Part shown: positions 21,346 through 41,724 of the stretch, in pieces | Numbering within the stretch: position 1 is the first letter of the stretch | Layout of the letters: every line of letters starts with the position of its first letter | Assembly: GCF_027625935.1 (NCBI RefSeq) | Contig: NZ_CP115300.1 | Coordinates: forward strand, 2,914,001 to 2,978,000 | Origin: Streptomyces camelliae | GTDB lineage: Bacteria; Actinomycetota; Actinomycetes; Streptomycetales; Streptomycetaceae | Length of the DNA stretch: 64,000 nt | Direction of reading: 5' to 3' | The notes under the pieces: model-generated | The model's database searches: none | Seen by the model: only the letters and a program-made list of their open reading frames with translations | Told to the model about the DNA's origin: nothing | Translations under genes and position numbers: made by a program

Positions 21346-22470
21346 CTACACCGCGGACGCTGTCGCGCGCGTGGTCGTCGCGATCGTCGCCGAGCCGACC
21401 ACGCGCGTGCCGTCGTACAGGACGATCGCCTGGCCGGGGGCGACACCCCGGACCGGCGCGGTGAAGGTGACGCGGAGTTCGCCGTCGACCGGCTCCGCGG
21501 TGACCTCGGTCTCGCCGCCGTGGGCGCGCAGCTGGGCGGTGTAGGTGCCGGGGCCGGTGGGGGCGGTGCCGCACCAGCGGGGCTTGATCGCGGTCAGGGC
21601 GGTGACGTCCAGGGCGGCCGCGGGGCCGACGGTGACCGTGTTGGTCACCGGGGAGATGTCGAGGACGTAGCGCGGCTTGCCGTCGGGGGCCGGGGTGCCG
21701 ATCCGCAGGCCCTTGCGCTGGCCGATGGTGAAGCCGTACGCCCCCTCGTGCGTGCCCAGCTTGGCGCCGGACTCGTCCACGATGTCGCCCTCGGCCCTGC
21801 CCAGGCGCTGGGCGAGGAAGCCCTGGGTGTCGCCGTCGGCGATGAAGCAGATGTCGTGCGAGTCGGGCTTCTTGGCGACCGCCAGCCCGCGCCGCTCGGC
21901 CTCCGCGCGGATCTCGTCCTTCGTCGTCACCGTGTCACCGAGCGGGAACATGGCGTGCGCGAGCTGCCGGTCGTCCAGCACACCGAGGACGTACGACTGG
22001 TCCTTGGCCATGTCGGACGCGCGGTGCAGCTCACGGGAGCCGTCCTCGCGCACGATCACCTTGGCGTAGTGGCCCGTGCACACCGCGTCGAAGCCCAGCG
22101 CGAGCGCCTTGTCGAGCAGCGCGGCGAACTTGATCTTCTCGTTGCAGCGCAGGCAGGGGTTGGGGGTGCGGCCGGCCTCGTACTCGGCGACGAAGTCCTC
22201 GACCACGTCCTCGCGGAAGCGGTCGGCGAGGTCCCAGACGTAGAACGGGATGCCGATGACGTCGGCCGCGCGGCGGGCGTCGCGCGAGTCCTCGATGGTG
22301 CAACAGCCCCGCGCGCCGGTGCGGAAGGACTGCGGGTTCGCGGAGAGCGCGAGGTGGACGCCGGTGACGTCGTGGCCGGCTTCCGCGGCGCGCGCGGCGG
22401 CTACGGCGGAGTCGACTCCGCCGGACATGGCGGCGAGGACGCGGAGGGGGCGCTGCGGGGTCTCAGTCAT
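21346..22470 (-). CDS. mnmA: tRNA 2-thiouridylase MnmA
   Basis: 374 residues. MnmA adds sulfur to U34 of Glu, Gln and Lys tRNAs, using persulfide supplied by a cysteine desulfurase. The PP-loop ATP site [13 protein letters not shown] is at the N-terminus. The two catalytic cysteines are in [12 protein letters not shown] and [12 protein letters not shown], and the QRKGLRIG and YVLDI segments of the C-domain follow. ATG 22470 has GGAGGGGCT directly upstream. nifS lies upstream on the same strand and probably supplies its sulfur, but the 343-base gap between them holds an RNA element on the other strand. Confidence 0.96.
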
Positions 22471-22546
22471 AGCCCCTCCAGGGTACGGGGCCCGGGAGGA
22501 GCCCCCGAAAAGTTTGAAGCGGCTGAAAAAATCAAGGCCAGACCCC

Positions 22547-22574
22547 TTGCGCACGATAGGTCCCGATTTATCCT
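22547..22574 (+). promoter_or_regulatory. Possible promoter for the TPP-riboswitch-like RNA
   Basis: TTGCGC (22547-22552), a 16-base spacer and TATCCT (22569-22574) resemble a housekeeping -35/-10 pair. Transcription would start near 22580, just before the base-paired 5' end of the RNA element. Found by eye only. Confidence 0.35.
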
Positions 22575-22582
22575 TGTATTAG

Positions 22583-22789
22583 ACCTACAAGACGAGTGAG
22601 GGAGTTCAAGCGGAGTAGCCGACTTCAGCGAGAGATACAGGATCTCCCTTCACCGAGAGGTACGAGTCTCCGCTGGTGCCGACGTCGACGCTCGGGCTGA
22701 GAGGCCGGAAGGTCGCAAGTACTGGACCGGAAGGCGACCCCTACTACCTGATCCGGACAATACCGGCGAAGGGAACCCGCCTTGTAGGT
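22583..22789 (+). ncRNA. TPP (thiamin pyrophosphate) riboswitch-like RNA, orphan
   Basis: All three conserved TPP-aptamer blocks occur in order on the + strand: GGTGCC (22675-22680), GGGCTGAGAG (22694-22703), and ACCTGATCCGGACAATACCG followed by GCGAAGGGA (22746-22774). The last block is nearly identical to known THI elements. An optional hairpin, GGTCGC/GCGACC, lies between blocks two and three, as in actinomycete examples. The ends pair: ACCTACAAG (22583-22591) with CTTGTAGGT (22781-22789), and TACGAG with CTTGTA nearer the core. P2 looks weak by eye, so the aptamer may be decayed. No thiamin gene follows; the next sequence is the antisense of nifS. Confidence 0.75.
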
Positions 22790-22813
22790 CGCTGTATGTC
22801 CCGGCCCGGATGC

Positions 22814-23983
22814 TCAGCTGAGGCCCGCCGCCCGCGCCCGTTCCACCGCCGGGCCGATCGCCTTCGCCACCGCCTCCACGTCCGCCTCGGTCGAGGTGTG
22901 GCCGAGGGAGAAGCGCAGGGTGCCGCGGGCCAGCTCCGGGTCGATACCGGTGGCCAGCAGCACATGGCTGGGCTGGGCGACGCCCGCGGTGCAGGCGGAG
23001 CCGGTGGAGCACTCGATGCCCTGGGCGTCCAGCAGGAGCAGCAGGGAGTCGCCCTCGCAGCCGGGGAAGGTGAAGTGGGCGTTGGCCGGAAGCCGCCCCT
23101 CGGGTGCCGGGTCGCCGCCGAGGATCGCGTCCGGTACGGCGTCACGCACGGCGTCGATCAACTGGTCGCGCAGCGCGCCGACCTCGCGGGTGAACTCCGC
23201 GCGCCGCTCGGCGGCGAGCCGGCCGGCGACGGCGAAGGACGCGATGGCGGGGACGTCGAGGGTGCCGGAGCGGACATGGCGCTCCTGGCCGCCGCCGTGC
23301 AGGACGGGGACGGGGGTGTGCTCACGGCCGAGCAGCAGCGCCCCGATGCCGTACGGGCCGCCGATCTTGTGGCCGGAAACAGTCATCGCAGCGAGGCCTG
23401 AGGCGGCGAAGTCGACCGGGACCTGGCCGAAGGCCTGGACCGCGTCGGCGTGCAGCGGGATGCCGAACTCGGCGGTGACGTCGGCGAGTTCGCGCACCGG
23501 CAGGATCGTGCCGATCTCGTTGTTGGCCCACATCACGGTGACCAGGGCGACGTCGCCGGGATTGCGGGCGATGGCGTCCCGCAGGGCCTCGGGGTGGACG
23601 CGGCCGTAGGAGTCGACGGGGAGGTACTCGACCGTCGCGCCCTCGTGTTCGCCGAGCCAGTGGACGGCGTCGAGGACGGCGTGGTGTTCGACGGGGCTGG
23701 CCAGCACCCGGGTGCGGGCCGGGTCGGCGGCGCGGCGGGACCAGTACAGGCCCTTGACGGCGAGGTTGTCGGCCTCGGTGCCGCCCGAGGCGAAGACGAC
23801 CTCGCTTGGGCGGGCGCCCAGCGCTTCCGCGAGGGTTTCGCGGGACTCCTCGACGGTGCGGCGGGCCCGGCGGCCGGCTGCGTGCAGGGAGGAGGCGTTG
23901 CCCGTGATGCTCAGCTGGGCGGTGAGTGCCTCTGCCGCCTCCGGGAGCATGGGGGTCGTCGCGGCGTGGTCGAGGTAAGCCAT
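22814..23983 (-). CDS. nifS: Cysteine desulfurase (NifS/IscS family)
   Basis: 389 residues. PLP-dependent enzyme that converts cysteine to alanine plus an enzyme persulfide used for Fe-S clusters and thiolated tRNA. The PLP lysine is in [12 protein letters not shown] (Lys206) and the sulfur-carrying cysteine in [15 protein letters not shown] (Cys331). The short active-site loop fits group I enzymes. ATG 23983 begins the standard [11 protein letters not shown]. mnmA lies downstream on the same strand, so a NifS-MnmA sulfur relay is likely. The orphan TPP-type RNA points toward its 3' end. Confidence 0.95.
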
Positions 23984-41346: not shown

Positions 41347-41518
41347 CGTGATCGTCCTCCCCTGTCGATTCAGTAATAGCCCTGCCCGTGAAACGTAAAG
41401 AGAAGGTAATAGCCAAAGGTCGGCGGTAAGGTCCGCGTCCTGCCACAGGCCGGTTACAAAAGCCCCGTCGGCGTGCGATGATGTGGCCGCCAACTGCATA
41501 CCGGCCGTTTGAATCCGC

Positions 41519-41724
41519 GCGGGAGAGTCCCCAGCAGCCTTCGCTGGGGCGCCGAAGGAGCAAGTCCCTCCCTTGAATCTCTCAGGCCCCGTTACCGCGC
41601 GGGCGAGGCACATCTGAAAAGCGGGCCGCTTCCGCAGTGGCTCCACCCAAGGTGCAAGCCGTGATCGTCCCCGTGGCGGTCGCGGCGAACCTCTCAGGTT
41701 CCGATGACAGATGGGGAGGAACGT
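41519..41724 (+). ncRNA. Tandem glycine riboswitch upstream of gcvT
   Basis: First aptamer: GCGGGAGAGTCC, then GGCGCCGAAGGAGCAAG and AATCTCTCAGGCCC (41519-41586). Second aptamer: CACCCAAGGTGCAAGCCG and CGAACCTCTCAGGTTCCGAT, then GACAGATGGGGAGGAAC (41643-41722). This is the classic paired arrangement with a short linker, 39 bases before the gcvT start. By analogy it turns on the glycine cleavage genes when glycine is abundant. Confidence 0.93.

Follow-up and report, generated by a model that had tools for sequence, protein, structure and literature searches.

The window, a stretch of 64,000 nucleotides, carries between mnmA and a nifS-type gene an RNA whose family we read, with about an even chance of being right, as a small RNA gene that stands alone and descends from a TPP riboswitch, probably acting in trans with its P3 arm as the effector and a TPP sensor as an optional part. 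Insofar as sequence comparison can establish them, the gene, its fold, and its promoter are conserved, its location changes, and the aptamer core is lost in some lineages with retention of the arm. Transcription, the 3′ end, TPP binding, gating of the arm, and action in trans are what we infer beyond that. Riboswitches are taught as cis elements, and the new part here appears to be a known aptamer in a free-standing role. A stand-alone TPP aptamer family would naturally test how a sensor RNA turns into a trans regulator, and with full and sensor-less versions at one locus, the role of the remaining RNA becomes directly testable. If our reading is true, a path would be visible from a cis riboswitch to a trans RNA and on to a sensor-less RNA. 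We found no earlier description of this RNA in a literature search that left preprints and most subscription journals outside its scope, and no stand-alone TPP RNA was found in the available portions of the Streptomyces RNA literature (PMC3765725, PMC8079986, PMC11678152, PMC8388888, PMC9130861, PMC11077062).

The RNA at the window locus

The preliminary description had proposed three conserved blocks of a TPP aptamer in order on the + strand, closed by 9 bp of complementarity and preceded by a plausible promoter, with nifS and mnmA both on the minus strand, and all of these elements are found (Table 1). The blocks are UGAGA, ACCUGAUCCGG (22746–22756), and CCGGCGAAGGGAA (22763–22775). The closing complementarity is exact (22583–22591 with 22781–22789), is lengthened to 10 bp by G22582–C22790, and continues beyond two A·C mismatches up to 22597/22775. 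The P2 helix is as weak as had been remarked. The P3 arm contains two conserved motifs, GGAGUAGCCGAC and GCCGACGUCGAC. The outer part of P3a is a GCC-GGAA-GGC hairpin as in an ordinary cis TPP riboswitch from another class (L298), and P3a looks like an elongated form of that hairpin. The GA of J1/2 and a second GA following P4 (22773–22774) could form the tandem G·A pairs of a k-junction, a motif for which we rely on the available part of PMC10573300. The longest mnmA frame opens at GTG 22554, within the promoter region of the RNA; the MnmA match runs from residue 38, and ATG 22470 is the likely start of mnmA.

Table 1 Features of the RNA gene and its neighbors, in window coordinates
Feature	Coordinates	Strand	Basis
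A-tract, UP-element-like	22526–22531	+	A 71–85% in columns −64 to −61 from the P1 anchor, 152 distinct copies
−35-like box TTGCGC	22547–22552	+	T 53% and 77% at columns −45 and −44, 152 copies; 16-nt spacer here
−10 box TATCCT (TAnnnT)	22569–22574	+	TAnnnT at one of four adjacent offsets, 151/152 copies
RNA body, P1 to P1	22583–22789	+	R1 match 22579–22795, 182.9 bits; RF00059 32.3 bits
Predicted transcript	~22582 to just beyond 22790	+	
P1 5′ strand	22583–22597	+	Pairs with 22775–22789; helix 1: 97.9% of cells paired, 6/14 pairs with both-side changes
J1/2 GA	22598–22599	+	Within GAGGGAG, 152/152 copies (motif also served to find copies)
P2 5′ strand GGG	22600–22602	+	Pairs with CCC 22738–22740; 100% paired over 3 pairs; changes limited to GC to GU, none on both sides
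P3 arm: P3, extension, purine-rich internal loop, P3b, P3c hairpin	22604–22697	+	Helices 3–6 with both-side changes
P3 arm, proposed effector	22604–22697	+	Arm retained in RNAs without the TPP core
UGAGA, J3/2	22698–22702	+	150/152 copies
P3a, GCC-GGAA-GGUC / GACC-GGAA-GGC	22704–22735	+	Helices 7 and 8 with both-side changes
P4/P5 with L5	22747–22772	+	RF00059 alignment; both-side changes: none in A1, some in A2; missing from core-less copies
P1 3′ strand	22775–22789	+	As for the P1 5′ strand
nifS-type cysteine desulfurase, convergent neighbor, outside the unit	22814–23983	−	NifS 380.2 bits, best family, below the equivalog cut-off of 530.75
mnmA, divergent neighbor, outside the unit	21346–22470	−	MnmA 417 bits, cut-off 284

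A cmscan of 22480–22860 (381 bases) places RF00059 at 22668–22791 with 32.3 bits (E 1.1e-4), lower than its gathering score of 54.3, and returns no other family up to E 10; in a scan of the whole window at the gathering threshold, the RNA is absent from the list. Among the tests named in the preliminary description are the RF00059 score and conservation of the paired positions in relatives; the first falls below threshold, and the second is borne out. The RF00059 alignment opens only at 22668, and the family alignment puts the 5′ strands of P1, P2, and P3 at 22583–22607, ahead of the long P3 arm. When 19 other family loci were scanned at E 0.5, 15 matched RF00059 with 32.0–46.1 bits, none reaching 54.3, and L016, L026, L035, and L221 gave no match. 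Scores below gathering at every matching locus would explain the missing annotation of the family. Two cis TPP riboswitches are present elsewhere in this genome, one ahead of thiO (60.8 bits) and the other ahead of the gene for a thiamin ABC binding protein (49.9 bits, also under the gathering score), so the orphan RNA is an extra. Two TPP riboswitches are likewise reported for S. lividans in the available part of PMC8079986. Elsewhere in the window, at 41510–41720 (+), lies a tandem glycine riboswitch whose two matches (70.9 and 38.7 bits) are both above gathering.

Family membership, fold, and promoter

Folded on its own, the window sequence does no better than shuffles (z 0.02), so the support for the RNA is comparative. 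By DNA search, 28 of 101 genomes of the genus contain a homolog, as do 8 of 21 relatives; both counts include the genome of origin. An alignment of 31 copies (A1, made with MAFFT) was the source of the covariance model R1 (189 positions, 53 pairs), whose structure was hand-drawn from the alignment and RNAalifold. At E 1e-14, R1 matches 69 of 199 same-genus genomes, once in each, with 70.5–205.3 bits; under these strict filters the other 130 are without a match, so the RNA is not essential. Among 296 genomes of the class, six exceed 100 bits (five of the same genus and one of another family), and the remaining matches among those listed reach 56.4 bits; at E 1e-3, 226 of the 296 match, as expected from ordinary TPP riboswitches. 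Three of 296 phylum genomes pass E 1e-14. One of them (G511, carrying L298, 73.6 bits) looked like a distant family member but is an ordinary TPP riboswitch in cis, upstream of an ORF that we take, by eye, for thiG. Since a cis riboswitch reaches 73.6 bits, E 1e-14 alone does not define the family, and scores near 70 bits need inspection; both such copies of the genus sample (G403 and G443) were inspected.

A pattern scan of named genomes yielded at least 120 records. Judged by their titles, the 120 listed belong to Streptomyces apart from four of Kitasatospora and one each of Catenulispora and Actinacidiphila, and S. griseofuscus DSM 40191 (L123) and S. viridochromogenes DSM 40736 (L081) are among the carriers. 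From one P1 end to the other, Streptomyces sp. CoH27 (L101) has the same RNA sequence as the window. A motif then located RNAs in 184 of 215 loci, leaving 152 distinct sequences. The 31 misses comprise two cis riboswitches (L001, L002), 24 loci that entered through lower-scoring R1 matches and were taken for ordinary TPP riboswitches (L163–L186), three RNAs cut by the locus end (L071, L073, L131), and two members of the family that have diverged (L160, L162). The RNA is ~210 nt at the window, and most full-length copies have 170–200 nt; between P1 ends the range is 159 to about 220 nt, with up to 236 as a model match and 120 in core-less copies. A coding RNA seems unlikely from this length variation, which arises through indels in P3c and P3a.

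The fold is supported by covariation. In A1, 92.6% of cells pair and 23 of 53 pairs change on both sides, compared with 9.7 in shuffles and 5–12 in slid controls, and none of 500 shuffles reaches any of the measures; these counts come from the alignment that was the source of the drawn structure, and the shuffles keep no account of relatedness. The pair U22597–A22775, for instance, is U-A in 19 of the 31 rows, C-G in 10, and gapped in 2. In A2, an alignment of 102 rows made with the model, which leans to the structure and includes two weak second matches of about 20 bits, both-side changes occur in 37 of the 53 pairs. On comparative grounds, then, the RNA is real and better than a chance match.

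The pocket is similarly well conserved, with UGAGA in 150 of the 152 copies, CCUGA in 150, the CG of P4/P5 in 147, and GAGGGAG in 152, and all five core motifs tested occur together in 146. The pattern that supplied 120 source loci required CTGAT and the P1 3′ strand, which makes conservation at those positions partly a product of the search; UGAGA lay outside the pattern. We assign ligand-pocket roles from known TPP aptamer structures, in which UGAGA of J3/2 is the pyrimidine-sensing element and P4/P5 with L5 the pyrophosphate-binding side. The family thus shares with RF00059 the conserved ligand-pocket nucleotides and core helices, including UGAGA, ACCUGAU, P4/P5, and the order of P2 and P3, and each model detects members of the other. 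It differs in a P1 of 12–15 bp, a P2 of 3 bp consisting only of GGG with CCY, a long P3 arm, an elongated P3a, scores below gathering, absence of the core in some lineages, a promoter of its own at P1, and the finding of no thiamin gene downstream.

When aligned by P1, the 152 copies share an A-tract, a T-rich −35 region, and a −10 TAnnnT. The last stands at a near-fixed distance in 151 copies, compared with 8.9 expected from dinucleotide shuffles, with the caveat that the four adjacent offsets were picked after the column composition of the 152 copies had been seen. From this near-fixed distance, transcription should start at the P1 helix, with the first P1 pair as the predicted start. Neither a U-run nor a clear terminator follows P1 in the window copy, and the downstream 70-mer folds at z < −2 in only 26 of 150 copies, a weak terminator signal overall.

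Changing locations and copies lacking the core

The 152 copies lie beside TetR/ferredoxin genes (88), nifS/mnmA (19), VapB/NmrA (12), four smaller sets (11), and others (22), where a label requires only one named gene cluster among up to four neighbors. On the RNA tree, in which 85 of 149 inner branches are weak, the location labels need at least 16 changes compared with 60.8 in shuffles, a pattern that indicates a location that is inherited yet changes repeatedly. Loci without the RNA are found as well. The gap between the ferredoxin and TetR genes is 46 nt in a genome with the RNA at nifS/mnmA (G003) and 37 nt in one with the RNA elsewhere (G064), measured between tblastn match ends and with absence of the RNA judged by plain string tests. 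Conversely, among 20 genomes checked for nifS, mnmA is within reach in 17; the RNA lies in two of these gaps (G000 and G003), and the other 15, of 688–1094 nt, are without it by the string test. Two nifS/mnmA loci (L116 and L118) have a + strand gene of 221–259 aa between mnmA and the RNA, and this extra gene together with the gaps of 688–1094 nt suggests that the short gap in the window may reflect its loss. Two other RNA copies have structured RNAs nearby: a tRNA gene ~105 nt upstream of one (L028, 1224–1308) and a cobalamin riboswitch match just above gathering near another (L006, 2333–2404).

Variation in location suggests that the RNA probably acts on distant targets and not on its neighbors. 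For the same reason, antisense control of nifS, which the preliminary description had entertained, is unlikely: nifS/mnmA adjoins the RNA in only 19 of 152 copies, and in the window P1 ends 24 nt before the nifS stop. The proposal of a stand-alone thiamin-sensing RNA fares better, the gene structure being upheld by the RNA's own promoter, lack of a fixed neighbor, and conserved fold, and the sensing being suggested by the conserved pocket.

At least 7 of the 69 carriers are without part or all of the TPP core and retain the promoter, P1, and the long P3 arm. Three of them (G013, G062, and G406) have no P4/P5, and UGAGG replaces UGAGA; G439 and G464 are without UGAGA and P4/P5; and in G403 and G443, 120-nt RNAs consist of P1 and the P3 arm only. 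G363, from the class sample, is likewise without P4/P5 and UGAGA. The genus cases come from nine inspected carriers below 120 bits, two of which (G416 and G476) retain the core. In G476 (L219), the letters of the ACCUGAU block are altered, possibly a sign of an altered ligand or of decay. The core-less copies are located at the ferredoxin/TetR locus with their promoter boxes kept, and P2 is altered in some of them. The flanking TetR and glycosyltransferase proteins gave a tree of 74 rows (8 of them core-less) whose strongly supported branches require three changes or more; we read these as core losses. Five pairs of core-less RNAs are 84–96% identical, compared with 70–83% in the next 50 nt and 72–91% in the promoter, on short flanks with gaps set aside and short of a formal selection test. 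Identity above that of the next 50 nt points to selection on P1 and the P3 arm in core-less copies.

The arm itself exists in two types. Type I, defined by at least two GCCGAC, accounts for 120 of the 152 copies and type II for 32. Two changes of arm type are needed on the tree, and one type II copy (L190) stands among type I copies. Type II occurs in Kitasatospora, Catenulispora, and some Streptomyces, and its members in A1 keep the core. Because the type II arm differs, one universal arm target is unlikely.

Proposed function and alternative explanations

A history consistent with these data, to which we give somewhat less than an even chance, is that the aptamer left its mRNA and became a relocating RNA gene coupling TPP level to distant targets through the P3 arm, and that the sensor was later lost in several lineages to leave a constitutive effector RNA. 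The RNA's own promoter would start transcription at the opening pair of P1, a long and locked helix, and the transcript would end soon after P1. The core (P2, UGAGA, P3a, and P4/P5) would probably still bind TPP, binding would determine how the long P3 arm is shaped or exposed, and the arm would act in trans upon an mRNA or a protein; lineages without the core would have a constitutive version of the RNA. A scan for the perfect complement of the conserved arm 12-mer GGAGUAGCCGAC gave no target signal, with 52 matches in 12 genomes (RNA genes included) compared with 86 for the reversed control.

The nearest precedents, as far as the available part of PMC8079631 goes, are SreA (SAM) and Rli55 (B12), trans-acting riboswitch RNAs of Listeria. 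Like these, the window family would be a riboswitch-derived RNA acting away from the next gene, as proposed here. According to that source, SreA retains cis control of a downstream operon and the Rli55 aptamer sets transcript length, whereas the present RNA is aptamer throughout, lacks a fixed downstream gene, and changes location. The HMP-PP (thiS) riboswitch is also a thiamin-pathway RNA, one that the available parts of PMC7266159 and PMC6429828 place always beside thiazole-synthesis genes, with an aptamer overlapping a terminator. Up to E 10 the scan matched RF00059 only, a result that would bear on thiS if that family is in the Rfam copy used. Ms1 (scr3559 of Streptomyces) is similarly a free-standing conserved actinobacterial noncoding RNA; by the available part of PMC9130861, it lies between SCO3558 (HAD hydrolase) and SCO3559 and binds core RNA polymerase. 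An Ms1/6S-like RNA was rejected on its flanks as given there, the HAD hydrolase and oxidoreductase being absent at the window and the scanned loci.

Other explanations fit parts of these data. The RNA might be a structural or protein-binding noncoding RNA that inherited the TPP fold as a scaffold, with TPP no longer the signal. We regard this as unlikely, though the likeliest of the alternatives. In its favor, the tree requires no fewer than three changes in which the core went and the remainder of the RNA was kept, and P1, by its length, looks locked in a way not expected of a switching P1 as we understand it. A scaffold has no need of a ligand pocket, however, and all five core motifs persist in 146 of 152 copies, with UGAGA, which the search pattern left free, in 150.

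An improbable reading is that of a local element that ends or insulates convergent transcription or yields TPP-dependent antisense RNA to the convergent gene by read-through. By gene calls from a home-made GC3 rule, 118 of 145 copies have their nearest downstream gene on the opposite strand, often as a convergent neighbor within about 80 nt (24 nt to the nifS stop here), and 87 of 140 have their nearest upstream gene on the same strand. The neighbors are unrelated, however, and the downstream gene is co-directional in 27 of 145; termination has no need of a 200-nt ligand aptamer with its own promoter, and most copies are without a strong terminator.

We give little credence to the idea that this is a standard cis-acting TPP riboswitch with a thiamin gene that escaped notice or disappeared recently, despite an aptamer homologous to RF00059 and the matching of ordinary TPP riboswitches by R1. 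An NmrA/DUF2867 gene on the + strand is the next one called in 10 of the 12 VapB/NmrA copies, and there the RNA may have a cis role. Against the cis reading stand the opposite-strand downstream genes (118/145), the varied contexts, and Pfam scans of 20 flanking proteins at 11 other loci, which found no thiamin family; two generic ABC-transport proteins (L020 and L023) lie upstream of the RNA. A cis position before a thiamin gene is thus found neither at the window, where nifS is convergent, nor at the 11 scanned loci.

It is similarly doubtful, to much the same degree, that the RNA is a selfish or hitchhiking small mobile unit with no cellular role. The location labels do change repeatedly on the RNA tree, but they cluster on it, each genome has one copy, and phage records and viral contigs gave no match to the pattern. 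Among plasmid records there is one true family member, carried by a 5.7-Mb Embleya replicon with no gene table in that collection, and four further matches are short (31–49 bases); carriage by phage or plasmid was rejected on this distribution. Least probable is a decaying relic, one of two readings in the preliminary description, which took the weak P2 to favor decay or an altered ligand: the score below threshold, the 3-bp P2, and the core losses agree with decay, but compensatory changes, promoters in 151 of 152 copies, UGAGA in 150, and persistence at many loci oppose it, and the weak P2 characterizes full-length family members in general, with GAGGGAG in all 152 copies (the motif being part of the search key).
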